Shown in pieces: positions 23,935 to 60,133 of a stretch of DNA of 64,000 nt (its first letter is position 1; each line of letters opens with the position of its first letter). The position numbers and the translations under genes are program-made. The stretch comes from Argopecten irradians (lineage: Eukaryota; Mollusca; Bivalvia; Pectinida; Pectinidae): positions 22,472,864 through 22,536,863 of the forward strand of contig NC_091140.1 in the NCBI RefSeq assembly GCF_041381155.1, given 5' to 3'. Under the pieces are notes generated by a model. It did not search any database, was not told the DNA's origin, and was given only the letters and a program-made list of their open reading frames with translations.

Positions 23935-25002
23935 AGGTCACTTGAGACGAAGTTGGGGTCGTCCCTCACCCGTCGTCCCTGGTATGTCCGTAAACAGTTT
24001 ACACTTTTCACTTCTTCTCCAAAACTGCTTAAGCAATTTCTATGAAATTTTGCACAAACCTTCTAAGGCATAAGGCCAATCAAAATTGTGAATAATATGG
24101 CCCCTACCCCCAAGGGGGCTGTAGGAGGGGCCAAAAGGGGTAAAATTGAGTAAAATTTCAAATATATTCTTTTCCACTCACAGATGTGGTGGAATCAAAT
24201 ACTCTTCATAGATAGATAGGTCTTAAGGTCCTTTACAAAAATTGTGAATTATATGACCCTGGGGAGGGGGTCAAGTTTACTATAGTTTATATAGGGAAAA
24301 CACATTTATGAGCATATTTTGCTCAATTTTCATAGGATATGAGTAAAACTTGGTTAGAATTATTAGCCTGATATAGCATTTTAATATCATATCCATATTG
24401 GTCCTGGCCGATCCCCTGGGGACAGAGGGGCAGGGTCAAATAGGTCAAATAGGCTAAAACTTCAGAAATCTTCTTAAATTCCGCAAATGATAGAATCAAA
24501 TATTCCTTATAGATGGAATTTCGAAAGGTCTTCAAGTGTTTTATAAAAATTGTGAATTATATGACGCTTCGGTCTCACGTTTCCCCCTGGGGAAGGGGTC
24601 AAGTTTACTTTAGTTTATATTTGAAAAAAACATTTTTCAACATTATTTGCTCAATTTTCATAGGAAATAAGTCAAACTTGATTAGAATTATTAGCCTGAG
24701 ATATAGCATTTTAACATCTATATCAGTCCTCACTGACCCACTGGGAAACCAGAGGGGCAGGGCCACTGACCCACTGGGAAACCAGAGGGGCAGGGCCAAA
24801 CAGTGTCAATATGACTTAAAATTTCAAAAAATCTTCTTCTGAGTTCACAGGTTTGATGGAAGCATATACTCTTCATAGATTAAAAAGTCAAATTTATCAA
24901 ATCACTGACCGAAATTCAAGGGCCAGTATATTAAAGTTTATATGTCTTTGTATCATTCTAAAAGAACTCAGGTGACCGTTAAGGCCCATGGGCCTCTTGT
25001 TT
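23935..25002 (+). mobile_element. Family 1 modular element, pearl/Helentron-like, copy 1
   Basis: It starts with a degenerate hairpin arm (AGGTCACTTGAGAC), then a short GTCGTCC-rich stretch and TCCGTAAACAGTTTACAC. Tandem core units of about 330 bp carry GTGAATTATATGACCC, a GC-rich block with AGGGGCAGGGCCA, and TTATTAGCCTGA. It ends with CTCAGGTGACC (inverse of the 5' arm), the palindrome AGGCCCATGGGCCT and CTTGTTT. A 52-bp duplication lies inside (near 24726-24798). Non-autonomous: no Rep/helicase frame. The pearl/Helentron comparison is inference from architecture. Confidence 0.75.
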
Positions 25003-25270
25003 GTGGTCACTATGTTGTGATCGGGGTTTGGGGGACTCAGGGTTGAGAAGGTGCCAGCTGGACTAATTAGATTCAAAATGACTACTCTTGGATTTTAAGT
25101 TTAGTAATAAAAAAAGAAAGTTTTGTTGCTATTAACTGATTACAATTTTGTAAAAGCTTTTTGAATCACTGTTGGTCACAACTAGAAAATAAAAGTTCTG
25201 TAAGGGGTCAAGGTCTTTGTTTCAAATGTCAATGTCAAATTTTGTATCGGCTCTGATGAACATTATCACA

Positions 25271-26779
25271 TACCGTATTTTCCGGAGTATAAGCCGCTAC
25301 TTTTTTCCCTGAAAATCGGGAGTGCGGCATATACACCAGTGCGACTTATCTGTGGACGAAAACCAAAATCTGACGATGTTTTGGCATTATTACGTCGTGA
25401 TTCACATGTGAAAATCGTAAGTTTTACTCGCCAGTTTTGTAAAGTTATACATCGAACAAATCACTGTAAAAGTGTTTAAAAGATAAAATATGCAATGAAA
25501 ATATATTAACGATGAAAATGATTACATATCAGATGCATATTCATTCGTAAAATTGTTTAATTCAAGGAAAATCCGCCGACTGAAACGTGTTTGTTTACTA
25601 GCGCAACACAATAGCGGTTTAGTAAAGTTATACATCGAAAATATCACTGTAGAAGTGTTTTAAACGATATAATATGTGATGAAAATATAATAAAGATAAA
25701 AATAATAACGTACCAGATACATGTTCAATCGTAAAATTGTTTAATTCATGGAAAATCGGTTGACTGAAGCGTGGTTGTTTACAGTCACAACACAATGGCG
25801 GACTGATTTCGCTATCGATTTGCTGCAGGATCGTTACCAAGAAAATAATAACTAAAACGTCAAAAACCATCAAATATCAAACAATAAGTTAAATATATTA
25901 TTTAAATATTATTTGAGTGAAAGAAATGTCCGCAGACAGGGAATAAACAATCTTCTGAATGACTGCTAAATATAACTTGCACACGTGTTACACACGGTCA
26001 ACATGTGTATTTCTCAGAATCCTGTCGCTGTGACTTCAATGAAATAATCGGCAGTCAAGTTTATAGTGTGAATTACATGTAATATAGAACATTATAGCGA
26101 TGTTAAAAAGCACCAAACAGTCGTATAAAACATCATTTAATCGATCTCTGCAGCGGCAAACACCACGAAATCATATCCGGAAGTTTACAAAAATAAGGCT
26201 TCGGTGAATTGCATCATGGGATGGCAAGTTGAGAGAGAACACTCTAAACGAAGTCAATTTTAGGTTAATGATAGTCTTGATAATAAAGTAATCCTATACA
26301 CATCAATATAATTAATACGCGAAGTATATCAAAATAGATATAAAAGAAAATCGTATGCATATTGAGGAAAGTATTTTAACCGGCATATTGAAATATGAGA
26401 GAGAGTAAGCGTGAATTCGTACGGCCGCCATGTTTGTTTACACACAAGAAGTCTTACGTAATGGCAGAGTAAACAACGAACAGAAACATGACCAAATCAA
26501 TTTTGCTAAAGATATTTATATCATTGTGAGTTTTATTTGTTATACATTTACAGAACAAGTTTACAGACAGTTTTCGTGATTCTAATTGATCGATAAGCAT
26601 TACCGTGCTTCATTAGAGATCGATCGTATACACAGAGGGTTGCGTGGGTGCATGGGCCTAACTTTTGGTTGCGGCTTATGTAACGGTGCGTCTTATGTGT
26701 GTACAAAACCTGAAAAAATCGTAAAAAAGGCCTCTGCGGCTTGTACACAGGTGCGACTTATTGTCCGGAAAATACGGTA
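25271..26779. mobile_element. 1.5-kb TIR element, TACCGTATTT group
   Basis: The ends are inverted: TACCGTATTTTCCGGAGTAT on the left and, read inward from the right, TACCGTATTTTCCGGACAAT. A subterminal GCGACTTAT occurs near both ends. ACA flanks both sides (25268-25270, 26780-26782); whether the target duplication is this or the TA inside the ends is unclear. A 183-bp direct duplication lies inside (25439 and 25622). No transposase-like frame is present. CGGCCGCCATGTTT near 26421 is shared with the related element at 45380-46920. Confidence 0.8.
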
Positions 26780-27861
26780 ACATGAATAAAAAATTATATT
26801 TACATGTAATTTGATGTCAATAATTAGCAAAACAAATCAACGACATTATCAGAATAAGTTTGAGCATCCCCCTTGGTTTGGATCCTCCCACATGATCCAG
26901 CACAGTACAATTCTATCGGCAACACCAATCATACAAATGCTTACATTTAATAATTGAATCATACATATATTAACGCTATACAGAGATATTAATGATGATG
27001 CTAATATTGAATATTTGTATTTGTTAAGTCATGTTAAAAGCCAGGGTCATTTTGTGGTTTTCAAAGTTATAAATGTGCAGGAAATTGGAGAACCTTGAGA
27101 AAAACCGTTGAATGGTCAGTATCAGGCAACTGCATCACATGGGATACAAACATGTGGAGAGAGTAAATAGTATGTAAGAACTCCTGAACTTAACTCAGCC
27201 CCTTAAACTAAATCTACAATAAAATGTAGATGTTGTAGGTTATGTTAAATCAGGATTACACAGATACATTTTTGTATTAGAATAAAAGTTATTTTAGTCA
27301 AGATACAAATGTTACATTTCAAGTGTTTAAGATAGTTGTCAAATTTCTGTTACAAATTTGGTTAAGGTGGTTTGCAGGAATTGCTATTGACCGATCAGAT
27401 GCTGGTATTAATATGATGAAAGTTATTTTGGTAACAAACAACATTGGAACCAAACTAGAAAATCAATTGTTTTTAAAAATGAGTTTGACAAATTAAAATA
27501 TTTTATGCATTCAATTTTTCCTTAAATTAATAAAAATATGTGCTCACAAATAGGTTTTTTCATGCATGTGTCTAAACTGAAGGCCAAAATGAGGTTATAT
27601 TCCTGTAGAGAACTTCGATGTATTTATAAGTGACATTTGACCCATTTTTTGTGTCAGATATATCATGTCTGTTGGAATTTTCTGACGGAAAAGCTATAAT
27701 GTATATATATTATTAGATGATGGTAGCTCAAGTTATGAGTGCTGTCAATCAGGATTTTAAATGATTACACATGACATATGATTCATAGCTGTATGTATCA
27801 CTCGCATGCATTTAAAAGATACTAAATTAATTTGTTTAATGTCATATGGACAATCTAAATT
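26780..27861. other. AT-rich spacer, no gene seen
   Basis: Unique-looking AT-rich DNA between a TIR element and the 86-bp array. No reading frame, RNA gene or repeat could be supported. Confidence 0.5.
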
Positions 27862-29110
27862 ACTGCATACTTCTAACCTCTCACAAAGGAAAAGTGTGGC
27901 CAATAAGTGTCTTACTACCACAGTTGACTCCACAATAACCCCTTTTTACTGCATACTGCTAACCTCTCACAAAGGAAAAGTGTGGCCAATAAGTGTCTTA
28001 CTACCACAGTTGACTCCACAATAACCCCCTTTTACTGCATACTTCTAACCTCTCACAAAGGAAAAGTGTGGCCAATAAATGTCTTACTACCACAGTTGAC
28101 TCCACAATAACCCCCTTTTACTGCATACTTCTAACCTCTCACAAAGGAAAAGTGTGGCCAATAAATGTCTTACTACCACAGTTGACTCCACAATAACCCC
28201 CTTTTACTGCATACTTCTAACCTCTCACAAAGGAAAAGTGTGGCCAATAAATGTCTTACTACTACAGTTGACTCCACAATAACCCCCTTTTACTGCATAC
28301 TTCTAACCTCTCACAAAGGAAAAGTGTGGCCAATAAATGTCTTACTACTACAGTTGACTCCACAATAACCCCCTTTTACTGCATACTTCTAACCTCTCAC
28401 AAAGGAAAAGTGTGGCCAATAAATGTCTTAACTACTACAGTTGACTCCACAATAACCTCCTTTTACTGCATACTTCCAACCTCTCACAAAGGAAAAGTGT
28501 GGCCAATAAATGTATTACTACCACAGTTGACTCCACAATAACCCCATTTTACTGCATACTTCTAACCTCTCACAAAGGAAAAGTGTGGCCAATAAATGTC
28601 TTACTACTACAGTTGACTCCACAATAACCCCCTTTTACTGCATACTTCTAACCTCTCACAAAGGAAAAGTGTGGCCAATAAATGTCTTACTACCACAGTT
28701 GACTCCACGATAACCCCCTTTTACTGCATACTTCTAACCTCTCACAAAGGAAAAGTGTGGCCAATAAATGTCTTACTACTACAGTTGACTCCACAATAAC
28801 CCCCTTTTACTGCATACTTCTAACCTCTCACAAAGAAAAGTGTGGCCAATAAAGTTGACTCCACAATAACCCCCTTACTTCTACCACAGTTGTCTTACTA
28901 CCACAGTTGACTCCACAATAACCCCATTTTACTGCATACTTCTAACCTCTTACAAAGGAAAAGTGTGGCCAATAAATGTCTTACTACCACAGTTGACTCC
29001 ACAATAACCCCCTTTTTACTGCATACTTCTAACCTCTCACAAAGGAAAAGTGTGGCCAATAAATGTCTTACTAACACAGTTGACTCCACAATAACCCCCT
29101 TTCTGCATTC
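27862..29110. repeat. 86-bp minisatellite, about 14 copies
   Basis: The unit includes TTACTGCATACTTCTAACCT, CTCACAAAGGAAAAGTGTGG, CCAATAAATGTCTTACTACC and GTTGACTCCACAATAACCCC. Spacing is regular at 86 bp (for example 27881, 27967, 28053, 28139), with one deleted unit near 28840-28890. Since 86 is not a multiple of three, frames do not persist and the array is non-coding. Confidence 0.95.
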
Positions 29111-30545
29111 AAAGAACGTGTTGTCAATAAAATCTCTTACTCTGATTTACTTCTAAACCTCTCACAAAAAGAAAACTGTGGCCAAGTAAAATTACTTACT
29201 GCTACTTCAACATGTTCTCAAAGAAAAAATGTCGCAAATAAAATAACTTACAGCATACTTCCAAACCTCCATCACAAAGAAAAGTGTTGGCAATAGAATT
29301 ATTACTGCATAATTCCCAACCAATATCATAAGAAAGTGGTGGCAATATAAATCTCTTACTGCATACTTTCAACCTTTCTCAGAAAGAAAAGTGTGGCCAA
29401 ATAAATATCTTACTGCATACTTTTCTAACCTCTCAGACAAAGGAAAAGTGTAGGCCCATAAATTCGTCTTACTGATACTTTCCAAACTGATCTAAAAAGA
29501 TAACTTCGTCGGGTCAATAACCCCATCTCTTACTGTATACTATCCATACCTCTCTAAAAAGGAAAACTGTGGTCCAATAAATGTCTTAGTGCATACTTCC
29601 TAACCTCTCTCAACAAGTTGACCATCCACAATAACCCCCTTTTTACTGCATTTACTTCTAACCTCTCAACTAAGAAAGAAAAGTGTGGTGGCCCAACTAA
29701 ATGTCCTTAGTGCATAAAAACACACGTATGACTCAACAATAACCCCCTTTCATAGCCAATAAGCGAATATTATACATAACCATGAAAGGGGCTGGACATA
29801 ATGTGCAGTCAACCTTGAGTAACCAATGCTAGAAGAGAGAGGTGAGATAATCATAACTATGTTCTAATGAAGCAGTATGAAATTAATAACCAACTAACAA
29901 ATGCTGACAAAAAAAATCTAATAATCCGATGCAATCAGAAAATCACATTTAACCAGTATCGTAAAATGTACATCCAAAAAGTTTCATTAATTATTATTTC
30001 AATTAATTGTTATATGAATAGCAAGCTTCCATACCTCTGTAAAGGAAAAGTGTGGCCCAATAAATAAATGTCTTACTACTACACAACCTAAAAAAAAAAA
30101 GTGTGGCCAATAAATCTCTTACTGCATACTCCAAACTCTCTAAAAAAGAAAAGTGTGGCAATAAAATAAATCTCTTACTGCTCACAACTTCCAACCTCTC
30201 TCAAAAAAAAGTGTGGCCAATAAATCTTTTACTGCATACTTCCAACTCTCTCAAAAAAAAAAAGTGTGGCCAATAAATAAATGTCATACTTACTAATCTC
30301 TCTAAAAAAAAGTGTGGCCAATAAACTCTTTGCATAACCTCTCTCAAAAAAAAAGTGTGGCCAATAAATCTCTTACTGCATACTTCCAACCTCTCTCAAA
30401 AGAAAAGTGTGGCCAATAAATCTCTTACTGCATACTTCCAACCTCTCTAAAAAAGAAAAGTGTGGCCAATAAATCTCTTACTGCATACCAACCTCTCTCA
30501 AAAGAAAAGTGTGGCCAATAAATCTCTTGCATACCACAGTTGATC
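29111..30545. repeat. Degenerate extension of the 86-bp array
   Basis: Units decay abruptly after 29110, with many small indels and inserted bases to about 29745. After an interruption they resume from about 30035 to 30545 as shorter units of about 50 bp carrying AAGTGTGGCCAATAAATC and CTTACTGCATACTTCCAA. The second half lacks the GTTGACTCCACAATAACC segment until its final unit near 30540. Confidence 0.85.
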
Positions 30546-30870
30546 CACAATAACCCCCCTTTCATGGCCAGTCAGGATTATTGACCATGAATGGGCTTGA
30601 ATCCCCTATGCATTGCCTAATCACGCGATTATTCACATGACCATGAAAGGGGATGCGGGACATGTGTGCAGTCAAAACCAATTGGTAACAAATGTAGTAT
30701 AGAGAGGGGTGTTTATCTTACTTAAACCTTGTTCTATTGGATAAAATTAAATCAATTAAACGTATTATTAACCGATACTGACAAGATTTTCTTAAAAAAA
30801 TGTCAATAATGCAATAAGAAAATTACATTTATTTAAATGCTTCATCACAAAGCTTCCATTATGTATTTCA
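29738..30870. repeat. Duplicated flank of the 86-bp array
   Basis: Sequence following the array occurs twice in direct orientation, about 29738-30030 and about 30550-30870. Each copy starts after CACAATAACCCCC, then has ACCATGAAAGGGG, GTGCAGTCAA, and an AT-rich tail ending near CAAGCTTCC or AAAGCTTCC. The copies differ by many substitutions and small indels. Array half plus flank was apparently duplicated as a unit. Confidence 0.65.
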
Positions 30871-32090: not shown

Positions 32091-32172
32091 CATATTGTAT
32101 ACCCTCGTATTGAAATATGTACAAATGGCATGTTTTTCGTCTGTTGCAAAGAAGATTTTTATAAAGGATCTA
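32091..32172. repeat. 82-bp direct repeat, left copy
   Basis: This sequence recurs at 34369-34450 with one difference (GAAGATTTTT against GAAAATTTTT). It begins CATATTGTATACCCTCG and ends TTATAAAGGATCTA. The two copies bracket the 157-bp array element exactly. See findings. Confidence 0.9.
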
Positions 32173-34368
32173 AGGGCCGGTGAGCTTATGTCATGGCGCG
32201 GCGTCCGTCGTCCGTCCGTCCGTCCGTCTGTCGTCCGTCTCCGTCAACATTTCCTTTTAAATCGCTACAAGTCATAGAGTTCTGGATGGATTATAACCAA
32301 ATTTGGCCAGAAATATCCTTGGGGGAAGGGGAACAGAACTTCTATAAATTTTGGTTCTGACCCCCAGGGGGCAGGAGGGGCGGGGCCCAATAGGGGTAAT
32401 AGAGGTAAATCCTATAAATCGCTACTTGTCCTAGAGTTCTGCATGGATTGTAACCAAATTTGGCCAGAAACATCCTTGGGGAAAGGGGAACCGAACTTGT
32501 ATAAATTTTGGCTCTGACCCCCTTGGGGCAGGAGGAGCGGGGCCCAATAGGGGTAATAGAGGTAAATCCTATAAATCGCTACTTGTCCTAGAGTTCTGCA
32601 TGGATTGTAACCAAATTTGGCTAGAAACATCCTTGGGGGAAGGGGAACAGAACTTGTATAAATTTTGGCTCTGACCCCCAGGGGGCAGGAGGGGCGGGGC
32701 CCAATAGGGGTAATAGAGGTAAATCGTATAAATCGCTACTTGTCCTAGAGTTCTGCATGGATTGTAACCAAATTTGGCCACAAACATCCTTGAGGGAAGG
32801 GGAACAGAACTTGTATAAATTTTGGCTCTGACCCCCTGGGGGCAGGAGGGGCAGGGCCCAATAGGGGTAATAGAGGTAAATCCTATAAATCTCTACTTGT
32901 CCTAGAGTTCTGCATGGATAGTAACCAAATTTGGCCAGAAACATCCTTGGGGGAAGGGGAACAGAACTTGTATAAATTTTGGCTCTGACCCCCAGGGGGC
33001 AGGAGGGGCGGGGCCCAATAGGGGTAATAGAGGTAAATCCTATAAATCGCTACTTGTCCTAGAGTTCTGCATGGATTGTAACCAAATTTGGCCAGAAACA
33101 TCCTTGGGGGAAGGGGAACAGAACTTGTATAAATTTTGGCTCTGACCCCCTGGGGGCAGGAGGGGCGGGGCCCAATAGGGGTAATAGAGGTAAATCCTAT
33201 AAATTGCTACTTGTCCTAGAGTTCAGCATGGATTGTAACCAAATTTGGCCACAAACATCCTTGGGGGAAGGGGAACAGAACTTGTATAAATTTTGGCTCT
33301 GACCCCCTGGGGGCAGGAGGGGCGGGGCCCAATAGGGGTAATAGAGGTAAATCCTATAAATCGCTACTTGTCCTAGAGTTCTGCATGGATTGTAACCAAA
33401 TTTGGCCAGAAACATCCTTTGGGGAAGGGGAACAGAACTTGTATAAATTTTGGCTCTGACCCCCAGGGGGCAGGAGGGGCGGGGCCTAATAGGGGTAATA
33501 GAGGTAAATCGTATAAATCGCTACTTGTCCTAGAGTTCTGCATGGATTGTAACCAAATTTGGCCAGAAACATCCTTGGGGGAAGGGGAACAGAACTTGTA
33601 TAAATTTTAGCTCTGACTCCCTGGGGGCAGGAGGGGCGGGGCCCAATAGGGGTAATAGAGGTAAATCGTATAAATTGCTACTTGTCCTAGAGTTCTGCAT
33701 GGATTGTAACCAAATTTGGCCAGAAAACATCCTTGGGGGAAGGGGAACAGAACTTGTATAAATTTTAGCTCTGACCCCCTGGGGGCAGGAGGGGCGGGGC
33801 CCAATAGGGGTAATAGAGGTAAATCGTATATAAATCGCTACTTGTCCTAGAGTTCTGCATGGATTTTAACCAAATTTGGCCACAAACATCCTTGAGGGAA
33901 GGGGAACAGAACTTGTATAAATTTTGGCTCTGACCCCCAGGGGCAGGAGGGGCGGGGCCCAATAGGGGAAATAGAGGTAAATCGTATAAATCGCTACTTG
34001 TCCTAGAGTTCTACATGGATTGTAACAAAATTTGGCCACAAACATCCTTGGGAGAAGGGGAAAAGTACTTGTATAAATTTTGGCTCTGACCCCCTGGGGG
34101 CAGGAGGGATGGGGCCCAATTGGGGAAATAGAGGTAAATCCTATAAATTGCTACTTGTCCTAGAGTTCTGCATGGATTGTAACCAACTTTGGCCAGAAAC
34201 ATCCTTGGGGTTAACAGAATTCGTATAAATTTTGGCTTTGACCCCCCTGGAGGAGAAAGAGTGGGTCCCAATAGGGGAATAAGAGGTAAATATCCAAATT
34301 TCTTCAGTAAAGAAACAATGAACTTATATTCAGAACATTTCTTGGCATTACAAACCAGGGATGTACAG
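32173..34368 (+). mobile_element. Family 4 modular element with 157-bp cores, about 13 copies
   Basis: The left end has AGGGCCGGTGAGCTTATGTC, then a GTCCGTCC microsatellite (32205-32240), then cores 157 bp apart (GTCCTAGAGTTC at 32428, 32585, 32742 and so on to 34157). Each core carries CTTGTCCTAGAGTTCTGCAT, CCAAATTTGGCCAGAAACAT and a GC-rich block with GGCAGGAGGGGCGGGGCC. The last 90 bp before the right direct repeat are AT-rich and unlike the cores. The 72-residue frames that recur on the minus strand only reflect the core period and are not genes. Confidence 0.8.
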
Positions 34369-37382: not shown

Positions 37383-38222
37383 AGGTCACCTGACTCTCAG
37401 GTGACCTATTCTAATCGCCTTTTGTTAGTCGTCGTGCGTCGTACGTTGTCCATCGTGCGTCGTCCGTCGTATGTCCGTAAACAATTTACATTTTTGACTT
37501 CTTCTCCAAAACTGCTGAAGCAATTTCAATTAAATTTTGCACAAACCTTCTATGGCATAAGGCCAATCAAAATTGTGAATTATATGGTCCCCACCCCCCA
37601 GGGAGCTATGGAAGGGGCCAAAAGGGGTAAAATTGATTATTTTTCATAGGAAATTAGTCAAACTGGGTTAGAATTATTAGTCTGAAATAGCATTTTAACA
37701 TCATGTCCATATTGGTCATGGCCGACCCCCAGGGGCCAGATAATCTTTATAGATTGGAAGGTCTTAAGGCCCTTTACAAAAATTTGTGAATTTCATGACC
37801 CTGGGATCTAAGATTTTCCCCTGGGGAGGGGGTCAAATTTACTATAGTTTATATAGGATAAACACATTTAGGAACATTATTTGCTTAGTTTTCATAGGAA
37901 ATTAGTCAATCTTGGTTAAAATTATTAGCCTGAGATAGCATTTTAACATCATATCCATATTGGTCCTGGCCGACCCCCAGGGGCCAGAGGGTTGGGGCCA
38001 AAAGGGGTCAAAATGGATAACATTTCAAAAATCTTTCTTCTGAATTCACAGATTTGATGGAACCAAATACATGTAATATTCATAGATTAAAAAGTCAAAT
38101 TTATAAAATCACTGACTGACTTCAAGGGCCTGATGGGCAAATATATAGTGTTAATATGCATGTCTTTGTTTCATTCTGTATCTGAACTCAGATGACCGTT
38201 AAGGCCCATGGGCCTCTTGTTT
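37383..38222 (+). mobile_element. Family 1 modular element, copy 2
   Basis: The 5' hairpin is perfect: AGGTCACCTGA (37383-37393), a 3-nt loop, TCAGGTGACCT (37397-37407). It is followed by ATTCTAATCGCCTTTTGT, a CGTCGTGCGTCGT-type microsatellite and TCCGTAAACAATTTACA. Core units follow, one partly deleted near 37735. The 3' end has a degenerate inverse arm (CTCAGATGACC), then AGGCCCATGGGCCT and CTTGTTT. It is the shortest copy, with about two cores. Confidence 0.8.
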
Positions 38223-43645: not shown

Positions 43646-45228
43646 ATCCCCCGCCCAACGAAGTTATATACAAATGGGTTCCGTCCGTCCGTCAGTCCGT
43701 CTGTCCGTCTGTCGTCCGTCCGTCCGAATGGTTTCCGGAGCATAACTCTAAAACCAGTAGAGATATTTCCACGAAACTTCATACACACATTGGTCTACAG
43801 ATACAGATTTTGAGGCTGATCGGAAAAACAAGATGGCCGCCAGGCAGCCATCTTTGATTTTGGCAGTTGAAGTTTGTTATCGATATTTCTTGAGAACTAC
43901 TAAAGGGATTTTGTTCAAACTTCACATGGAGGGTTCCCTTGGTCCCTAGTTGTGCAATACATATTTTGAGGCTGATCGGAAAAACAAGATGGCCACCAGG
44001 CAGCCATCTTTGATTTTGGCAGTTGAAGTTTGTTATCGATATTTCTTGAGAACTACTGAAGGGATTTTGTTCAAACTTCACATGGAGGGTACCCTTGGTC
44101 CCTAGTTGTCCCTTAGAGATTTTGAGGCTAATCGGAAAAACAAGATGGCCGCCAGGCAGCCATCTTTGATTTTGGCAGTTGAAGTTTGTTATCGATATTT
44201 CTTGAGAACTACTGAAGGGATTTTGTTCAAACCTCACATGGAGGTTACCCTTGGTCCCTTTTTGTGCCATACATATTTTGAGGCTGATCGGAAAAACAAG
44301 ATGGCCGCCAAGCGGCCATCTTCGATTTTGATAGTTAAGGTTTGATATCCCTATTTCTCAAAATGTGCTGAAGGGATCTTTCTCAAATTTAATATGTAGG
44401 TTCCCCTAGGGCCCTTGTTGTGCATATTGCATTTTTGGACCAATCGATGAACAAGATGGCCGCCAGGCCGCCATCTTGGATTTTGATAGTTAAAGTTTGT
44501 TATGGCTATTTCTCAGATAGTACTGAAGGGATCTGTCTCAAATTCCATATGTAGGTTCCCCTAGGGACCTAGTTGTGCATATTGCATTTTGGGACCGATA
44601 GGTCAACAAGATGGCCGCCAGGCAGCCATCTTGGATTTTGTCATTCAAAGTTTGTTATCGCTATTTCTCAGAAAGTATGAATTGATCTTTCTCAAATTTC
44701 ACATGTATGTTCCCCTAGGGCCCTAGTTGTGCATATTGTGATTTGGGACCGATTGATCAACAAGATGGCCGCCAAGGAGTCATCTTGGATTTTGATAGTT
44801 GAAGTTTGTTACCGCTATTTCTCAAAAGGTACTGAAGCGATCTGTCTCAAATTTTATATGTAGTGTGTTTGAAAAAGTTTAAAAAGTAGAGAAAAGATCC
44901 ATCTTTCCTTTGTCAGATATAGATCATTCTTTGGTGGGTGCCAAGATCCCTCTGGGATCTCTTGTTTCTGTAACCATAGAAACATTGCTGAAAATATCAT
45001 ATTTTTGTAGCAGGTTCATTTCCGGAGCATAACTCTAAAACCAGCAGAAATATTTCCACTTCATAGACACATTCATTTTATGGTCTAGTAGTACCTTTTG
45101 CTATTTTTAGGTTTTTATTTTTTGCACTTTTTCCTGTTTTTATTTTCATACACAAGTCTCCACAATCTAACTTACTTCAGCTTTGATATCTCCATTGGCG
45201 GGGGATCTGAATGACTATGTCCTTGTTT
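43646..45228 (+). mobile_element. Family 3 modular element with nested family 2 sequence
   Basis: The outer left end ATCCCCCGCCCAACG (43646-43660) is the inverse of CATTGGCGGGGGAT (45193-45206), and the outer end is CCTTGTTT (45221-45228). A GTCCGTCC microsatellite follows the left end, then CCGGAGCATAACTCTAAAAC. That outer core resumes near 45010 after an intervening block of about eight cores (about 150 bp) carrying AACAAGATGGCCGCC. The block ends at 44967 with AGATCCCTCTGGGATCT and CTTGTTT, the family 2 3' end. The 163-residue minus frame across the cores is only repeat periodicity. Confidence 0.75.
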
Positions 45229-45246
45229 ATATCTGAATTAATATTT

Positions 45247-47134
45247 GGCCCACTATTATCAGATGATGCACTATTCAAATTGCCCATCATTCCTCTGTTT
45301 GTAAGCCATTCTTGTTACTGCTATTTCTCAAAAAGTACCCCATACTAAAGGAATCACTTTCAAATTTCATAGATAGACTTACCGTATTTGACCGCAAATA
45401 AGACCCCTCCCGCAAATAAGACCCCCCACCTATTTTGACACATTTTCAGACTTAGGGGGGATGTCTGCAAATAAGACCCCCCACCACTTTTTCAGTTTAC
45501 TGGATGATGGAATTGAGCAATGAAGTAATTAAAAATATCAACAAAAAAGATTTTGTATCGGGACTTATTTTTGTTTGTTTTATCGTCATAAAAAGATCAC
45601 GTAGTAAACAACTGTTTGTGTGCTTGTTATTTTTGTCATTTAATTCAAGTTAATTCACTGGTGATTTTATTTAACTACCAATAACTTCGAATTGTGGACA
45701 GTGCTAATATCTAATTTGAGGTTATTTTCAACAAAATACGCCGATATATGTTTCCATGAACACTTCATATCGGCATGGTCAACAACGTTTTATTGTTCGT
45801 ACGGCTTGTCATTTTTTACATGAATCGGCAAAGATATTCGTCATTGATGCGAATCGTTTCTGCAGTCGTGGATTCTAACTCAATACAATCATTACCTTAA
45901 ATATCTACTTAAGGCATTTACAGTTTCAAATATGTTTATTTGTGAACGTAACGTACCTGTAGTTCACGACCAGTTGGAGAAACCATGCTTTACTTTTCGG
46001 CCGCCATGTTTTGTTTACGCAGTCAGTATAATATGATTAGCCGCAAAGTTTCGTATTTTACTCTGGATACAAAAATACTTGCTACGATGTTTTAATGCAG
46101 TTAATACTTGGATTAAGTTCTGAAATATTATCAAACTATCGTCGTATCAATAACAATACCTATCAAATTCCCAAAACACGACCCGGTGTGAAAATGTGAA
46201 AGTATGGCTTCAACCCGGCGCCATTTTCCTACACATGTGTGTACGATGTTACAAACAACTGCATAAGTGCATGTCGGCACGTTGAAGTTAAATCACGATC
46301 GTTTGCTTATTTGGCTGAGACAAATGTACGTAAATTCTTCTGTTTATGAAAGAATTTGGTATGTAAACGTTTGCAGCGAATTTTAAGTAGACCTGAGCCT
46401 GAACGGCGATCGTCCTTCCGATTGACGGCGATTGATTCACGTGTTTACTAAGACGGAGATGTAGTTGTGATCGTAAACAATAACCGAATTTGAATATCTT
46501 AATATAACTATACGAATTCCTATACGGATTATTAAAACTTCTGGATTAAAATGACATTGCTTATGATGCTGTTTCTTCGTTTTGATTCATTGGTGAATGT
46601 CCGCGTGACTCATGCAAAATGTGCGTTTCCCTTTCAGACTTGCGTTACAACTGCCCTAGTTTAGTTTATATTTTAATTTGTCATAACATTTGATTTAATT
46701 TTACTCATACGTCTTCATAATTATTATAAATATTTGAACATCTTGCTATCACCCATCTGTCATACGACTGTTACAACAATGACAGGACATTAAAAAATCC
46801 AAGATGGCGACCTCATTGATCGATGTTATCAGGCGGGTTGTCCGCAAATAAGACCCCCAACCACTTTTGACCTTTATTTCTTCTCTGGGAGGGGGGTCTT
46901 ATTTGCGGTGAAATACGGTATATTTGACATAAATATGCATATTGCATTTTGGGACGGATTCATCAAAAAAAAAATCCGAAAGGCAGCATTCTTTGATTTT
47001 GAAGAAATTACTGACGCGATCTGTCTGAATTTTCATATGTAGATTCCCCTTGGTGCCTGTTGATATTGCTGAATGGATACAAGATGGCTAACGGGCGTAT
47101 AAAATTGGTCTTTTTTCATCTGTAATTCTTGTTT
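45247..47134 (+). mobile_element. Degenerate family 2 element, interrupted by a TIR element
   Basis: CCCACTATTATCAGATGATG followed by CACTATTCAAATTGCCC is a decayed version of the family 2 5' hairpin and box. TGTTACTGCTATTTCTCAAA begins a core. The core is broken by the 1.54-kb element at 45380-46920 and resumes with TGCATATTGCATTTTGGGAC (46938 on). A CTTGTTTG near 47128 would be the right end. It is more diverged than the copy at 58316. Confidence 0.6.
45380..46920. mobile_element. 1.54-kb TIR element, TACCGTATTT group
   Basis: The left end TACCGTATTTGACCGCAAAT and the right end, read inward as TACCGTATTTCACCGCAAAT, continue into AAGACCCC on both sides; the repeat is about 32 bp. The AAATAAGACCCCCC motif also recurs subterminally near 45416, 45468 and 46845. 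No transposase-like frame is present. CGGCCGCCATGTTTTGTTTAC near 46000 links it to the element at 25271-26779. It lies inside an older family 2 element. Confidence 0.8.
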
Positions 47135-49367: not shown

Positions 49368-49379
49368 TATAGTGCTTAG

Positions 49380-50580: not shown

Positions 50581-50589
50581 AACATGTTA

Positions 50590-52012
50590 GACTAGATTTT
50601 GACAACTGATGTTTGTTACTGCTATTTCTGTGGCACTATAGTGATGTTTGTTACTGCTATTTCTGTAGCACAATAGTGATGTTTGTTACTGCTATTTCTG
50701 TAGCACTATACTAATGTTTGTTACTGCTATTTCTGTAGCACTATAGTGATGTTTGTTACTGCTATTTCTGTAGCACTATAGTGATGTATGTTACTGCTAT
50801 TTCTGTGGCACTATAGTGAAGTTTGTTACTGCTATTTCTGTAGCACTATAGTGATGTTTGTTACTGCTATTTCTGTAGCACTATAGTGAAGTTTGTTACT
50901 GCTATTTCTGTAGCACTATAGTGATGTTTGTTACTGCTATTTCTGTGGCACTATAGTGATGTTTGCAGCACTATAGTGATGTTTGTTACAGCTATTTCTG
51001 TAGCACTATAGGGATGTTTGTTACTGCTATTTCTGTAGCACTATAGTGCAGTTTGTTATTGCTATTTCTGTAGCACTACAGTGATGTTTTTTACTGCTAT
51101 TTCTGTAGCACTATAGTGATGTTTGTTACTGCTATTTCTGTGGCACTATAGTGATGTTTGTTACTGCTATTTTTGTAGCACTAAAGTGATGTTTGTTATT
51201 GCTATTTCTGCAGCACTATAGTGAAGTTTGTTACTGCTATTTCTGTAGCACTATAGTGATGTTTGTTAATGCTATTTCTGTGGCACTATAGTGAAGTTTG
51301 TTATTGCTATTTCTGTAGCACTACAGTGATGTTTGTTACTGCTATTTCTGTAGCACTATAGTGATGTTTGTTACTGCTATTTCTGTAGCACTATAGTGAT
51401 GTTTGTTACTGCTATTTCTGTAGCACTATAGTGATGTTTGTTACTGCTATTTCTGTAGCACTATAGTGAAGTTTGTTACTGCTATTTCTGTAGCACTATA
51501 GTGATGTTTGTTACTGCTATTTCTGTGGCACTATAGTGATGTTTGTTACTGCTATTTCTGTAGCACTATAGTGATGTTTGTTACTGCTATTTCTGTAGCA
51601 CTATAGTGATGTTTGTTACTGCTATTTCTGTGGCACTATAGTGATGTTTGTTACTGCTATTTTTGTAGCACTAAAGTGATGTTTGTTATTGCTATTTCTG
51701 CGGCACTATAGTGATGTTTGTTACTGCTATTTCTGTAGCACTATAGTGATGTTTGTTACTGCTATTTCTGTAGCACTATAGTGATGTTTGTTACTGCTAT
51801 TTCTGTAGCACTATAGTGATGTTTGTTACTGCTATTTCTGTAGCACTATAGTGATGTTTGTTACTGCTATTTCTGTGGCACTATAGTGATGTTTGTTTCT
51901 GCTATTTCTTTAGCACTATAGTGAAGTTTGTTATTGCTATTTCTTTAGCACTATAGTGATGTTTGTTACTGCTATTTCTTTAGCACTATAGTGATGTTTG
52001 TTACTGCTATAT
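50590..52012. repeat. 35-bp minisatellite, about 40 copies
   Basis: The unit is GTTTGTTACTGCTATTTCTG followed by TAGCACTATAGTGAT. Variants include TGTGGCACT, GTGAAGTTTG and one shortened unit near 50960. GTTTGTTACTGCTATTTCT is almost the same as GTTTGTTACCGCTATTTCT in the family 2 core, which also lies just upstream. The period is not a multiple of three and the array is non-coding. Confidence 0.95.
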
Positions 52013-52081
52013 CTGCCTCCGCTGGATATTCGGAATACATTTTGATGTGAAATTCTTTTAGTTGGGCTTTGTAGTTATGTG

Positions 52082-52676: not shown

Positions 52677-52679
52677 TTG

Positions 52680-54009
52680 TTAAGTCACTAAAAACGTGAT
52701 TGATGTAAATACCCATGACCCTTTTGTATAACCAATCCATTGACATAGATGTGGGATTACCAATCTAAGGTGTTGTCATTATTAGTGTTAACTAGCTGTA
52801 GGTTGGTTATTTTATCTGAATATCAAGAGTCTGGGCTGGCAAATTTTGATCTAGTGTATTGGAAACATTTCATACAATGTCAATAGATGTCTGGTGCCAA
52901 AGTGAGACAGCCATTTTTTCTGCCAATACGAGTGCTTGATTGGTCTATAGGGCCAAGGCTATAGGGCTAGACTATAATCTGCTGTTTCTAACATTTTTTT
53001 TTTCAACTTATTATTCCATGAACTGTAGGAATCAATCAATTGTAGGAATAATTTATTGGAACTGTTCCTTGCTCATATAAATTCAAGAGAACACATTTCA
53101 TTTTCAGGGTTTTATTGAATAAAGTCAATATGAATTTTCTGTAATCTTAAACAAAAAAATTGATAATTCAGTTTAAAAATTCTTGCTGTTGTAGTGAATC
53201 ATAAAACAAAGTAATTTCCCTGCATAAGAAAAATTACTTCAGAGAGTGAATTGGTAATTGAAGTACTTAAAGTTTATCAAATATTCTAAAACCAACACGG
53301 TTATTTGTTTCAGCTTCATTTTAATGCATTAGCTTTCTGCAGTGTCTGCTAAAGGTGTTTGTGATATTGGAGATTCTGAAGTATTTGAATTTGTTCGGGA
53401 GAAACAACATGCCTCCTTTACACGCTTTATAATAGTTGCGACTGTTGTTACAAACAACAGGCTAGAAGTTGGCAGGAGAAAAAGATTGCATGCCTGATAT
53501 TTCACTTTTCAAAAGAAGCCATTTTTAAAATGATAATAGAAAAAAAAATCATTTTCAATTATTATTGCAAATTCAATCAAGAAAAGAAATCTTTGCTATC
53601 TGCGTTTGTAGGTTTCAGAGACTAAGATAAAAATGTTGTTTTGCAGAAATGTATGAAGAATAGCATTAATTGACATTCATAGATAGGGACATATAATCAA
53701 TGGAACTGAATATGTGGTGAACATGGAATTGACAAGACGGTGCCACTCTGGGGAGGCGAGTAAAGACTATAGTGCTGCCTATCAATAGAGACGATCTTGT
53801 TCCTACAGACAAACATGTAGTGGTTAAGGTATATCTTTGATTCTGTCCCTTCACTGACCCTCTCCTCTGAGATTTTGTGCTACTTTTCCTCCAGTTTGGT
53901 CAATCTGTATTAATCTGGTCCTGATCACTCCTCAGTACCTCTTTCTGGACATGGTCAGAAAAAGAGATGACCACTCGGACATTACAAAGCAGAATGAATG
54001 AATGATACT
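52680..54009. other. AT-rich spacer, no gene seen
   Basis: No exon, RNA gene or repeat with clear ends was identified. Confidence 0.5.
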
Positions 54010-54155
54010 GATCCAATGGGTCTATGGTAAATATTGAGTCTATTCACACTACTAGATTATTGAATATGAGCTACACAATAAACCTTTGTTAGTAGTAGAT
54101 GTACTAATGTATCCATGATAGTCTTTTTAATGTTTAGCCCATTGGATCTCTTGTT
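54010..54155 (+). mobile_element. Core-less short modular element
   Basis: GATCCAATGGGT (54010-54021) is inverse to GCCCATTGGATC (54138-54149), and TCTTGTTT ends the block at 54155. There is no microsatellite or core array. It looks like a minimal or deleted relative of the modular families, keeping only arm, inverse arm and terminal CTTGTTT. Confidence 0.45.
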
Positions 54156-54184
54156 TATTATAAGAATTTGAGCAATGAAATACA

Positions 54185-54560
54185 AGCAAATGTGATATCA
54201 ATAAGACTAGACCTGCTGTACCACAGGAAGGGAAGATAAACAATAATTGACAAAACAGATTTTAAGGAAAATTAAGCATGTTACATACAGGTCTTTGACA
54301 ATGAAAAAAGTACAAGGCCTTAAACCTTTTGTAAAGAACAAAAAAATAGTTCATTTGCATAACAGTATCAAGTCAAAGATAAGCTATACAGGCCTAATAA
54401 ACCTTTTGTTTGTACTGAAACTTTGAATTCAAGATATAATCAAACTACACAGGCCCAATAAGCCTTTTGTCTGGACCATAGCATTAAGTAAAGATGAACT
54501 TTGCAGGCCCAGTAGACCTTTTGTCTGTACTGTAGCATTAAGTAAAGGTGAGCTTATAGA
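54185..54560. repeat. 42-bp array, left segment (degenerate)
   Basis: Several diverged units carry CAGGCCCAATAAGCCTTTTG, TCTGTACTGTAGCATTAAGT and similar strings. They match units at 56390-57680. The segment is separated from the main array by the family 1 element at 54787-56186. Confidence 0.7.
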
Positions 54561-54786
54561 GCATAGTTATAAACGATAACGATGTATTGATGATTCTCAT
54601 CTTCTGATAGGATATTGATGCCTATTTTTCGAAATCAATACAAGGACCGAAATTGTACTTGATGACCTTCCCATGACCTAGTAAAGTTGGAATTTCAAAT
54701 ACAAATGAAATGTGTATTAGTTTTTACATTATACCAACTGTATATATATTGTAAGGTTCCTGATAATTTAACTCCATGAATTTTTT

Positions 54787-56186
54787 GTTCACCTGAGACA
54801 AAGTCTCAAGTGACCTAATCTATTCGCCTTTTGTCTGTTGTCGTGCGTCATGTGTCCATAAACAATTCACATTTCCAACTTCTTCTCCAAAACGTATGAA
54901 GCGATTTCAATGAAATTTTGCACTAACCTTTTAAGGCATAAGGCCAATCAAAATTGTGAATTATATGACCCCCCACCCCCCTAGGGCCTGTGGGAGGGGC
55001 CAAAAGGGGTAAAATTGACTAAAATTTCAAAAATATTCTACTCCACTCACAGATGTGGTAGAATCAAATACTCTTCATAGATAGAAAGGTCTCAATGCCC
55101 TCTACAAAAATTGTGAATTATATGACCCAGGGATCTCAGGTTTCCCCCTGGGGAGGGGGTTTAGTTTACTATAGTTTATATAAGGAAAACACATTTTTAA
55201 GCTTTATTTGATCATTTATAATAAAAAATTAGTCAAATGTTGTCAGAATTATCCCTATGAGATGACCATTGAATCTTATTTTCAAATTTTTCCATGAATG
55301 ACCCCCAGGGGCCTTAGGGGCAGGGCCAAAAGGGGTCAAATAGGCTAAAACTTCTAAAATCTTCTTCTGAAATTCTAGAACTGATAGAATCGAATACTCT
55401 TCATAAATGGAAAGGACTTAAGGTACAAAAATTGTGAATTATATGACCCTGGGGTCTGAGTCGTGTTTCCCCTGGGGAGGGGGTTAAGTTTACTATAGTT
55501 TATATAAGGAAAACACATTTTTGAGCATTGTTTGGTCATTTATAATAGAAAACTAATCCAAATGTTTTCAGAATTATCCCTATAAAATGGCCATTGAGAA
55601 TCATATTAACAAATATTCCATGACTGATCCACAGGGGCCTTGGGGGCGGGGCCAAAAGAGGTCAAAATTGTTAGAATTTCAAAAATATTCTTCTGAATTC
55701 ACAGATTATATGAAACCAGATACTCTTCATAGATTGGAAGGTCTTAAGAGCCTTTACAACAATTGTGAATTTCATGGCCCTGGGATCTCAGATTTTCCCC
55801 TGGGAGGGGGTCAAATTTACTATAGTTTATATAGGAAAAACACATTTATGAACATGATTTGCTTAGTTTTCATAGGAAATTAGTCAATCTGGGTTAGAAT
55901 TATTAGCCTGAGATAGCGTTTTAAGGTCATATCCATATTGGTCCTGGGCGACCCCCATGGGCCATAGGGGCAGGGCCAAAAGGGGTTAGATGGATAACAT
56001 TTCAAAAATCTTTCTTCTGAATTCACAGATTTGATGGAACCAAATACTCTTCATAGATTAAAAAGTATAATTTATAAAATCACTGACTGACTTCAAGGGC
56101 CTGATGGGCAAATATATAGTGTTTATATGTCTTTGTTTCATTCTGTATCAGAACTCAGGTGACGTTAAGGCCCATGGGCCTCTTGT
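54787..56186 (+). mobile_element. Family 1 modular element, copy 3
   Basis: The 5' hairpin is TTCACCTGAGAC, a loop, then GTCTCAAGTGACCT, followed by AATCTATTCGCCTTTTGTC, a short GTCGTGCGTC tract and CATAAACAATTCACA. About four core units of roughly 330 bp follow, with GTGAATTATATGACC near 54956, 55114 and 55434 and GTGAATTTCATGGCC near 55763. The right end has CTCAGGTGACG, AGGCCCATGGGCCT and CTTGTT. It is the longest family 1 copy and is inserted within the 42-bp array. Confidence 0.8.
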
Positions 56187-56389
56187 TCACAATTACCACA
56201 AATTATATATAAAATACTCAGCAATAGTTCTCGAGTGACATGCGTTGTTTTTGTTTATATAACCGATTATGTAGTACACAAAACGACCTTTCTGGATTTC
56301 GTCTTTTTCTCAACAACGCCTTTGTTTTGATATATATCGATACATCGTGATATTTTCCTTCTGATATATCGATACTTAACATTTATATC

Positions 56390-57680
56390 AATAACAGCTG
56401 TATGAGCTACAAAGCCCAATATACCTTTTTGTCTGTACTGTATAGCATTAAGTAAGGATGAGCTACACAGGCCCAATAGACCTTTTGTCTGCACTATAGT
56501 ATGATACCAAGATTAGCTACACAGAACTTATGTCTGTACTATAGCATGATTACACAGGCCCAATAGAACTTCTTTCTGTACTATAGCATGACTACACAGA
56601 CCCTATAGACCTTTTGTCTATATTATAGTATGACTACACAGGTCCCGTAGACATTTTGTCTGTACTATAACATGACTACACAGGCCCAATAGACCTTTTT
56701 CTGTACTATAGCATGATTACACAGGCCCAATAGACCTTATTCTGTACTATAGCATGGCTACACTGGCCCTATAGACCTTTTGTCTGTGCTATAGCATGAC
56801 AACACAGGCCTTATAAACCTTTTGTCTGTACTGTAGCATGACTACACAGGCCCTATAGACCTTTTCTGTACTGTACCATGACTACACAAGCCTTATAAAC
56901 CTTTTGTCTGCACTGTAGCATGACTACACAGGCCTTATAAACCTTTTGTCTGTACTGTAGCATGACTACACAGGCCCTATAGACCTTTTGTCTATATTAT
57001 AGTATGACTACACAGGTCCCGTAGACATTTTGTCTGTACTATAACATGACTACACAGGCCCAATAGACCTTTTTCTGTACTATAGCATGATTACACAGGC
57101 CCAATAGACCTTATTCTGTACTATAGCATGGCTACACTGGCCCTATAGACCTTTTGTCTGTGCTATAGCATGACAACACAGGCCTTATAAACCTTTTGTC
57201 TGTACTGTAGCATGACTACACAGGCCCTATAGACCTTTTCTGTACTGTACCATGACTACACAAGCCTTATAAACCTTTTGTCTGCACTGTAGCATGACTA
57301 CACAGGCCTTATAAACCTTTTGTCTGTACTGTAGCATGACTACACTGGCCCTATAGACCTTTTGTCTGTACTGTAGCATGACTACACTGGCCCTATAGAC
57401 CTTTTGTCTGCACTGTAGCATGACTACACTGGCCCTATAGACCTTTTGTCTGTACTGTAGCATGACTACACTGGCCCTATAGACCTTTTGTCTGCACTGT
57501 AGCATGACTACACTGGCCCTATAGACCTTTTGTCTGTACTGTAGCATGACTACACAGGCCTTATAAACCTTTTGTCTGTACTGTAGCATGACAACACAGG
57601 CCCTATAGACCTTTTCAGTACTGTACCATGACTACACAGGCCCTATAGACCTTTTGTCTGTACTGTAGCATTAAGTAAAT
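56390..57680. repeat. 42-bp minisatellite, about 30 copies, with 374-bp duplication
   Basis: The unit is ACTACACAGGCCCTATAGAC, CTTTTGTCTGTACTGTAGCA, TG. A block starting GACCTTTTGTCTATATTATA at 56608 recurs at 56982, giving a 374-bp tandem duplication of about nine units with matching variants. The 42-bp period yields a 14-residue minus-strand repeat frame (MLQYRQKVYRASVV) that is not a gene. Confidence 0.95.
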
Positions 57681-58315
57681 GATTTTAACAGATTAGTGAT
57701 TAGTAGATTCCTAAGTGGTCTGTGTCTCTCGTACATCTGTTTGTGATTTCCTCTCTCTTTGAGCTCTAGTCAACAAGTTAAAGCTTCCTCAGGAAATACA
57801 ATTAAGGCATCTCATTATATAATATTTACTTTACAGTAATGTCTTAAGCTGTAGTGTTACTAAGTAAAAAATATTCAATGTTAATTACAAGTTCAGTCTG
57901 CATTATTTTATGTCGAACTTCAAAGTCTTTTATTTGTTCATGTTCATCTTCAGACATTAGACTTTTTTAGACAATAAACCATATCCTCAATTATGTCTTC
58001 TCAATTATGACAGCACTACGATTGAATTAGAATGACTAGGATGTGTTGACCTTCAGTTTACTGGTACAGGCGTTCTGGCTCAATTGACTGAATGCCATGT
58101 GCACATGCAATAGCACAGTGGTAAAACTTCCAAAACCTGAAAAACTACATTTTGTTCTGCATCACTAGAAAATGGCTCATCAAATCACTTGTAATTCTAT
58201 TATCTGTCATCATTCATTTGCAGACCTTTTTAAAACGTCAGATAAAAGTTAATAAAATGGCTGATAGGCTGCCTTCTTTCTAAGAATTTTCTTTGGAAAT
58301 TGAAGGGCTTTTATT
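57681..58315. other. Spacer, no gene seen
   Basis: Non-repetitive AT-rich DNA between the 42-bp array and a family 2 element; no feature is supported. Confidence 0.5.
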
Positions 58316-60133
58316 AGCCCACCATCATCAGATGGTGGGCTATTCAAATCGCCTTTCGTCCGTGGTCCGTCGTCCGTCCGTCCGTCCTTCCGTCCGTCCG
58401 TCCTTCCGTCCGTCCGTCCGTTAACAATTCTTGTTACCGCTATTTCTCACAAAGTACTGAAGGAATCTTTCTCAAATTTCACATGTAGGTTCCCCTAGGG
58501 CCCTAGTTGTGCATATTGCATTTTGGGACCAATCGGTCAACAAGATGGCCGACTGGCGGCCATCTTGGATTTTGATAGTTAAAGTTTGTTACCGCTATTT
58601 CTCAGAAAGTTGTGAAGGGATCTTTCTCAAATTTCACATGTAGGTTCCCCTAGGGCCCTAGTTGTGCATATTGCATTTTGGGACCAATCTGTCAACAAGA
58701 TGGCCGACTGGCGGCCATCTTGGATTTTGATAGTTAAAGTTTGTTACCGCTATTTCTCAGAAAGTTGTGAAGGGATCTTTCTCAAATTTCACATGTACGT
58801 TCCCCTAGGGCCCTAGTTGTGCATATTGCATTTTGGGACCAATCGGTCAACAAGATGGCCGACTGGCGGCCATCTTGGATTTTGATAGTTAAAGATTGTT
58901 ACCGCTATTTTTCAGAAAGTTGTGAAGGAATCTTTCTCAAATTTCACATGTAGGTTCCCCTAGGGCCCTAGTTGTGCATATTGCATTTTGGGACCAATCG
59001 GTCAACAAGATGGCCAACTGGCGGCCATCTTGGATTTTGATAGTTAAAGTTTGTTACCGCTATTTCTCAGAAAGTTGTGAAGGGATCTTTCTCAAATTTC
59101 ACATGTAGGTTCCCCTAGGGCCCTAGTTGTGCATATTGCATTTTGGGACCAATCTGTCAACAAGATGGCCGACTGGCGGCCATCTTGGATTTTGATAGTT
59201 TAAGTTTGTTACCGCTATTTTTCAGAAAGTTGTGAAGGGATCTTTCTCAAATTTCACATGTACGTTCCCCTAGGGCCCTAGTTGTGCATATTGCATTTTG
59301 GGACCAATCAGTCAACAAGATGGCCGACTGGCGGCCATCTTGGATTTTGATAGTTAAAGTTTGTTACCGCTATTTTTCAGAAAGCTGTGAAGGGATCTTT
59401 CTCAAATTTCACATGTAGGTTCCCCTAGGGCCTTAGTTGTGCATATTGCATTTTGGGACCATTTGGCAAACAAGATGGCCGACTGGCGGCCATCTTGGAT
59501 TTTGATAGTTAAAGTTTGTTACCGCTATTTCCCAGAAAGTACTGAAGGGATCTTTCTCAAATTTCACATGTAGGTTCCCCTAGGGCCCTAGTTGTGCATA
59601 TTGCATTTTGGGACCAATCGGTCAACAAGATGGCCGACTGGCGGCCATCTTGGATTTTGATAGTTAAAGTTTGTTAACGCTATTTCCCAGAAAGTACTGA
59701 AGGAATTTTTCTCAAATTTCATATGTAGGTTCCCCTAGGACCCTAGTTGTGCATATTGCATTTTGGGACAGATCGGTCAACAAGATGGCCGAAGGGCGGC
59801 CATCTTGGATGTTGATAGTTAAAGTTTGTTACCGCTATTTCTCAGAAAGTAATGAAGGTTTTTTTCTCAAATTTCATGTGCAGGTTCCTGAAGGGGTCTA
59901 GTGCATTTTCGGACTTATCGGTCAGCAAGATGATCGACAGGTAGCCATCTTGGATTTTGATAATTGAAGTTTGTTTCTGCTATATATGTCAGAAAGTACT
60001 GAAAGGATCTTTCTCAAGTTTAATATATAGTATGTAGTAAAAGTTTGAAAAGCAGGGAAAAGATCCCTCTTTCTGTTGTCAGACATAGATCATTCTTTGG
60101 TGGGCGCCAAGATCCCTCTGGGATCTCTTGTTT
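58316..60133 (+). mobile_element. Family 2 modular element, intact, 155-bp cores (about 10)
   Basis: The 5' hairpin is AGCCCACCATC (58316-58326) and GATGGTGGGCT (58331-58341), followed by ATTCAAATCGCCTTTCGTC, a GTCC microsatellite (58365-58425) and GTTAACAATTCTTGTTAC. Cores are spaced at 155 bp (58526, 58681, 58836, 58991, 59146 and on). Each carries CAAGATGGCCGACTGGCGGC, part of a perfect stem closed by GGCCATCTTG. The right end is TTTGGTGGGCGCC (inverse of the 5' arm), AGATCCCTCTGGGATCT and CTTGTTT. This copy is the best reference for the architecture. No transposase or helicase frame. Confidence 0.85.

Follow-up and report, generated by a model that had tools for sequence, protein, structure and literature searches.

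Modular repeats of the window

We analysed a 64,000-nucleotide stretch of the Argopecten irradians genome (the window; contig C7:22472864-22536863) and searched the whole genome, 845.8 Mb, for relatives of its repeats. The window contains several modular repeat elements, here assigned to numbered families (F1, F2, and so on; contigs and loci carry our C and L numbers). These elements are very probably HINEs, that is, non-autonomous Helentrons moved via a rolling circle by proteins that autonomous Helentrons of this genome encode. Features expected of such elements include perfect subterminal inverted repeats (subTIRs) of 8-11 bp in F1-F5, a 5' inverted repeat plus microsatellite in F1, F2, F4, and F5, a 3' hairpin, insertion within a T run, and autonomous copies that share the ends.

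The modular design is genuine for F1 and F2. A sequence-only reading of the window had listed a 5' hairpin, a box, a CGTC/GTCC microsatellite, the string CCGTwAACAATT, tandem cores, an inverse copy of the 5' arm, and a second hairpin followed by CTTGTTT, and two elements on the forward strand contain all of these parts in that order with no mismatch in the box. F1 copy B (37383-38221) has its arm at 37384-37393, box at 37408-37425, CCGTAAACAATT at 37475-37486, and 3' hairpin with CTTGTT at 38202-38221. The complete F2 element (58316-60132) comprises a hairpin (58317-58340), box (58342-58359), microsatellite (58357-58421), tandem cores of ~155 bp (58431-60021), 3' subTIR (60099-60105), and hairpin with CTTGTT (60110-60132). 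A 35-bp satellite at 50607-52015 resembles the F2 core over 22 aligned positions (z about 5).

Two further F1 copies, also on the forward strand, are less regular. The box claimed for copy C (54786-56187) is present at 54817-54834 but has two mismatches; its hairpin and CTTGTT lie at 56168-56187, and the next base is C, not T. Copy A (23935-25001) had likewise been credited with a 5' hairpin and box, and here the claim failed: the 5' part is decayed, no box is found at up to four mismatches, and the 5' hairpin is incomplete by eye. Its 3' end is intact, with a subTIR at 24967-24977 and hairpin plus CTTGTT at 24982-25001.

The F3 element (43646-45227, +) is HINE-like and composite. It retains the proposed subTIR pair (43648-43655 and 45197-45204) and terminal CTTGTT, but the 3' hairpin is absent (fold energy 0.0), and F2-type cores with an F2 3' end, without the F2 5' end, lie inside it (43807-44966, +; hairpin and CTTGTT at 44944-44966). 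This single copy has a microsatellite and no clear 5' hairpin. A short element proposed at 54010-54156 (+) was unsupported and we rejected it: the stretch matches only itself in the genome, which is no proof of rarity, and its end, which lacks a hairpin, does not fold.

Two elements on the forward strand had gone unnoticed. The first is an F4 fragment (32174-34291) with the 5' inverted repeat GGGCCGGTGAGC at 32174-32185, the F4 box, a CGTC microsatellite, and 13 cores of 157 bp; searches for its outer 5' arm (in F4, GCTCACCTGG) and 3' end found neither. A direct repeat of ~80 bp (length by eye) flanks the fragment, starting at 32091 and 34369. The second is a degenerate F2-like copy (45248-47134) with five mismatches in the hairpin and four in the box, split by another element at about 45380-46920. 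The intervening element, about 1.5 kb long, has inverted ends of 42 nt (86%) beginning TACCGTATTTGACC..., and an end pair starting TACCGTATTT is also present at 25271-25297 and 26753-26779. Elsewhere in the window are a foldback of 80 nt at 63066-63229, its arms 93% complementary and separated by 4 nt, and an exon at 4562-4873 (-) that matches Pfam DNA_pol3_delta2 and that we take to encode a clamp-loader (RFC-like) protein.

Shared box, 3' ends and insertion sites

The exact box occurs 3,386 times in the genome (1706+1680), and the reversed control gave no match. In all 28 loci read (22 distinct boxes), an arm or inverted repeat of F1 or F2 type stands before the box, although incompletely in L145 and L148. 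The F4 5' end, allowing up to two mismatches, has 3,302 matches, and its reversed pattern has none. When viral contigs were scanned for the box and the F2 end, at least 131 loci were returned, and none had any of the tested element parts beside the match; a further scan of genome contigs gave no match.

A box shared by families with different arms had been proposed. We compared one representative 18-nt string per family, taken after the hairpin, with 20,000 single-base shuffles; F6 is represented by a single 5' end, seen at C15. F1 and F2 are identical at 16 of 18 positions, and none of the shuffles was as good. Agreement then declines through F1-F6 (13/18; 1 shuffle as good), F5-F6 (12; 34), F2-F6 (11; 30), F2-F5 (11; 71), F1-F5 (11; 115), F2-F3 (10; 139), F5-F4 (9; 320), F1-F3 (9; 605), F2-F4 (8; 754), F1-F4 (8; 949), and F4-F6 (8; 1039). 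For F5-F3, F6-F3, and F4-F3, similarity is at chance against the same shuffles. The proposal is thus strongly upheld for F1 and F2 but fades in F6, F5, F3, and F4.

It is possible, if somewhat doubtful, that the likeness of boxes and cores reflects common descent, recombination, or swapping of 5' modules and not selected signals. Consistent with this explanation, composites do occur (F3 contains F2 parts, and at two places an autonomous copy is joined to the 5' part of an F2 element), and the box fades family by family. Moreover, the sequence behind the box is also alike in F1/F2/F4 and in F2/F3: the 5' parts score z 19 for F1B-F2, 24 for F1B-F4, 22 for F2-F4, and 13 for F2-F3, values that are inflated by the microsatellite, and F1B-F3 falls below z 4. 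Against it, CTTGTT follows 3' stems of two kinds, and the box of one family is rarely joined to the 3' end of the other on C1 (1 of 100 within 4 kb). The box may be shared because the entire 5' part descends from one ancestor, as well as because it is a retained signal.

At the 3' end, the proposed mark of a hairpin directly followed by a constant string holds in a shorter form. Among 28 3' ends collected, 22 terminate in CTTGTT, 3 in CTTGTC, and one each in CTTGTA, TTTGTT, and ATTGTT; CTTGTT was part of the search patterns, which biases the count in its favour. The following base varies (T 17, A 6, C 4, G 1), and we therefore rejected CTTGTTT as the terminal string in favour of CTTGTT. The F1 and F2 ends coincide with their hairpins, and these 3' ends have 2,244 and 2,344 matches genome-wide, respectively, with none for either reversed pattern. 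Scans for tRNAs and Rfam families returned no matches.

The 3' palindrome folds in F1, F2, F4, and F5, and the ends of F3 and of the 54010 stretch are unfolded. Different hairpins had been said to precede one string. CTTGTT does follow unlike stems, but there are only two: AGGCCC/GGGCCT, common to F1, F4, and F5 with differing loops, and AGATCCC/GGGATCT in F2. Within the window, CTTGTTT is not enriched (17 found versus 18.5 expected from shuffles). A perfect stem of 7 bp or more ends within the 3 nt before the string in 6 of 17 CTTGTTT and 14 of 65 CTTGTT sites, versus 0.6% of 21,310 positions. Independent cases of stem plus CTTGTT are nevertheless few in the window because many are opposite-strand sites inside core repeats (9 of the 14 for CTTGTT and 2 of the 6 for CTTGTTT).

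Three arrangements of these sequences are worth recording. On the minus strand of the F2 cores (58431-60021), nine monomers carry a hairpin directly followed by CTTGTT (stem of 7 bp in eight, 6 bp in one), resembling an inverted 3' end signal. Some F4 3' ends are doubled, for example at C7:22007929 and 22008003, possibly marking a subfamily with a doubled terminator. Finally, an F1 3' end recurs six times on one strand of C1:5414616-5431391, at intervals of 3354-3357 bp, in a tandem array of F1-containing units.

The proposed insertion between T residues is borne out by the sole readable empty site. Comparison of both flanks of an F2 insertion on C12 with the empty site on C376 shows six T residues in the empty site and, in the filled site, five T residues, the element (A...CTTGTT), and one T; the target is a T run and is not duplicated. 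A second insertion, of F1/F5 type, agrees with this at its right flank, the one flank compared, and by eye most 5' ends of F1, F2, F4, and F5 show a T run, then A, then the arm.

These features bear on two other classes of transposon. Canonical Helitrons begin with TC, end in CTRR, and insert into AT. Ends of the form A...CTTGTT and a T-run target do not fit this class. A miniature inverted-repeat transposable element (MITE), or another cut-and-paste element with inverted repeats, would also have inverted repeats near both ends, as seen here. We consider this origin extremely improbable given the unduplicated target at the one empty site, the asymmetric ends with a 3' hairpin, and the helicase and endonuclease that end-sharing elements encode beside a Rep domain.

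Autonomous Helentrons and pairing of ends

The Rep profile Helitron_like_N matches 104 times in the genome and in none of 14 control genomes, and 29 of 30 Rep loci carry the Helentron type of Rep motif 2 (GSPHxH). Rep and DUF6570 were found in C15, the sole Rep piece scanned for domains. PIF1 is present in all three C-terminal pieces, with Exo_endo_phos above the cut-off in two and below it in L193, and an OTU domain is found in C15 and C9. The N-terminal piece of the F4 group gave no domain match, and no RPA match was seen in the seven Helentron pieces scanned, which are partial elements. N-terminal pieces of two autonomous proteins (L190, L192) match OTU and Herpes_teg_N profiles.

An autonomous Helentron with the same ends had been predicted. 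We found such elements for F4 and F5 at their 3' ends and for F1 by position. In the F4 group, 13 Rep matches start at profile position 43, and in 12 of them the Rep start and the F4 3' end, CAGGTGAGC...AGGCCCTCTGGGCCTCTTGTT, are 7.5-8.5 kb apart. Our similarity searches scored the 40 best candidates, so that the resulting counts are lower bounds: at least 8 of 11 non-query autonomous matches in this group stop within one base of the CTTGTT end (the others at q554, q581, and q492). By position, a decayed Rep at C1:21277724 has an exact F4 5' end 9.1 kb upstream on its own strand. A second exact F4 5' end precedes an F4 3' end by 4.6 kb (C1:7208027-7212592), with an F2 3' end in between. A search of the region upstream of the F4 group did not reach a 5' boundary; the element extends further.

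For F5, the Rep copies on C9 and C607 have their last 506 nt in common, and at least 28 places without a listed Rep nearby reach q504-511 of this shared 3' end. At least 20 of the 28 rows reaching q504 or beyond end within one base of the CTTGTT end, not counting one row of 70% identity and the rows that end sooner. For F1, an exact box (C1:16377965), a Rep with a 1482-aa open frame (C1:16387016), and an exact 3' end (C1:16393634) follow one another on the forward strand. This Rep, placed between matching F1 ends by position, is the only one in the stretch of C1 that the box and 3'-end listings both cover, and we estimate the chance of both F1 ends matching within 10 kb at about 2 in 10,000. 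Element ends that lie off the hairpins, or that are unlike all autonomous ends, would have spoken against the sequence-only reading. As far as this was checked they did not appear: the F1 and F2 ends coincide with hairpins, and the F1 (by position), F4, and F5 ends recur in autonomous elements; no such match came up for F2 or F3.

Two other candidates were rejected. An autonomous copy on C11 carries an F2 5' end, but 9 of 10 other copies read lack it there (only C11 and C1 have it); the C11 sequence is therefore an F2 fragment inside an autonomous element. The C15 element was set aside as a partner since its hairpin and CTTGTT belong to a short repeat found in many places without the rest of the element; at least 23 of 30 rows starting at q1455-1578 and passing q1970 end within one base of the CTTGTT end. 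At L194 (411-1079) and L206 (484-1019), an F2 5' end with cores is fused to an autonomous element and the F2 3' half is lost, the two places sharing the fusion. Head-to-tail joins within one family also occur: at L201 (2007), the 3' end of an autonomous copy directly abuts a 5' end, and at L199 (-; 2080) TTTA separates the two.

Ends are paired by family. In the first 17.9 Mb of C1, we took 100 listed boxes (63 F1 and 37 F2, assigned from the fifth letter of the box) and exact 3' ends. A 3' end of the box's own family lies on the same strand within 4 kb downstream for 15 of 63 F1 and 14 of 37 F2 boxes (29/100), versus one F1 box and no F2 box for the other family's end. Within this distance, wrong-strand ends number 0 and 0 and upstream ends 1 and 2 for F1 and F2 boxes, respectively; within 10 kb, the corresponding values are 18 and 15 for own ends, 3 and 3 for other, 6 and 2 upstream, and 2 and 1 on the wrong strand. 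SubTIRs behave in the same way, matching perfectly over 8-11 bp within a family and over at most 7 bp between families (one representative each of F1-F5).

This pairing bears on the suggestion that one common trans-acting enzyme recognises all of the families. A single Helentron enzyme reading only hairpin shape, CTTGTT, and box would account for CTTGTT, and for the box of F1 and F2, being common despite unlike arms, as well as for the 3' stem shared by F1, F4, and F5. Yet ends pair by family (29 own versus 1 other among 100 boxes), subTIRs match within families only, and the F4 and F5 ends occur on different protein lineages, with 48% identity between their helicase and endonuclease regions (726 aligned positions); identity between the C15 protein and the F4 partner is 30%. 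Given the family-wise pairing, and the distinct ends found on distinct autonomous lineages, we favour one partner per family over a single common enzyme, which we regard as improbable.

Several observations weigh against the HINE assignment and its autonomous partners. Only a single insertion with both flanks could be set against an empty site, and 71 of 100 boxes lack an exact own 3' end within 4 kb. All 23 short places listed for F4 continue to match for at least 5 bases beyond CTTGTT and so show no sharp end there; in nine, the end is repeated about 74 bp further along, and this second copy stops at or before CTTGTT. The Rep at C12:14028818 has no F4 3' end among the matches listed, and neither does the Rep at C1:21277724, which contains three TGA codons and one TAA. 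The F1 and F4 5' ends of autonomous copies are placed by coordinates only. An F5-group 5' end was not found within 5 kb upstream, where no boundary is seen, nor was an own 3' end of the C15 group. Finally, no autonomous partner was found in the genome for F2 or F3. The HINE assignment nevertheless remains very probable to us.

Proposed mechanism and relation to known systems

We propose that these HINEs replicate by a rolling circle driven by proteins of autonomous Helentrons. An address recognised by one Helentron lineage would be formed by the family-specific 5' arm together with the inverse arm close to the 3' end, so that each lineage would serve its own address and its protein the matching ends. 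The box, the GTCC microsatellite, and CTTGTT after the 3' hairpin would be common parts inherited by the lineages. Cleavage or termination would occur at CTTGTT, and insertion would take place within a T run without target duplication. The central tandem cores would travel as passengers.

A more ambitious proposal is that this Helentron clade combines a fixed chassis with an exchangeable address: the box and CTTGTT would be kept as catalytic signals, and the arm pair (in F2 also the 3' stem) would change together and set which lineage moves which passenger. If so, a simultaneous change of address at the two ends would give rise to a new family. We consider this rather unlikely, in part because F1, F4, and F5 have one 3' stem in common.

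The layout and kind of these elements have already been published (PMC7492417, PMC4067079; here and below, statements on published work refer to the accessible parts of each source). Replication is described as beginning at the 5' end, with the 3' hairpin terminating it and insertion in TT (PMC4067079, PMC12628747). Helentrons and HINEs/DINE-1 share palindromic subTIRs, a 3' palindrome, a T-rich target, Rep/helicase/endonuclease, the Helentron-type Rep motif 2, and ends common to HINEs and autonomous copies with the elements described here (PMC4067079). An RPA open reading frame is also described for them, for which we saw no match in the partial elements scanned. The bivalve pearl elements (CvA, CvE, CvG), MgE, and DTC84 likewise have conserved ends on either side of a short array of ~160-bp repeats, a likeness by description (PMC7492417, PMC11136912).

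The closest parallel is Cg_HINE of Crassostrea gigas (PMC7492417), which has the same 5' subTIR, inverted repeat, GTCY/GTCC/GTCK microsatellite, tandem repeats, 3' subTIR, and 3' palindrome, a TT target without duplication, and families with unrelated modules in one genome. We found no mention of a shared box or CTTGTT in the accessible text of that paper (figures and supplements being outside this scope), and that of PMC4067079 likewise mentions neither a box nor a CTTGTT constant from family to family. An autonomous link in such a genome, a box across unlike arms, and a constant CTTGTT were not found in the accessible parts of PMC7992393, PMC8268682, PMC11136912, PMC10294476, and PMC12628747, subscription literature being mostly outside this set, and a literature search for CTTGTTT with Helitron gave nothing on the subject by title or opening of the abstract.

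In oyster, ten autonomous elements were described and none could be related to the HINEs (PMC7492417), and in another oyster study no autonomous copies were detected and the elements were judged probably inactive (PMC7992393). Unlike Cg_HINE, the elements described here share ends with autonomous groups in F4, F5, and, by position, F1. Helentrons with long open reading frames that share HINE ends within one genome make the relation of enzyme and satellite-carrying element directly testable, and likewise a role of CTTGTT and the box in recognition. Relative to the known systems, we see a modest novelty in the autonomous Helentrons that share HINE ends, the box common to families with unlike arms, and the constant CTTGTT.

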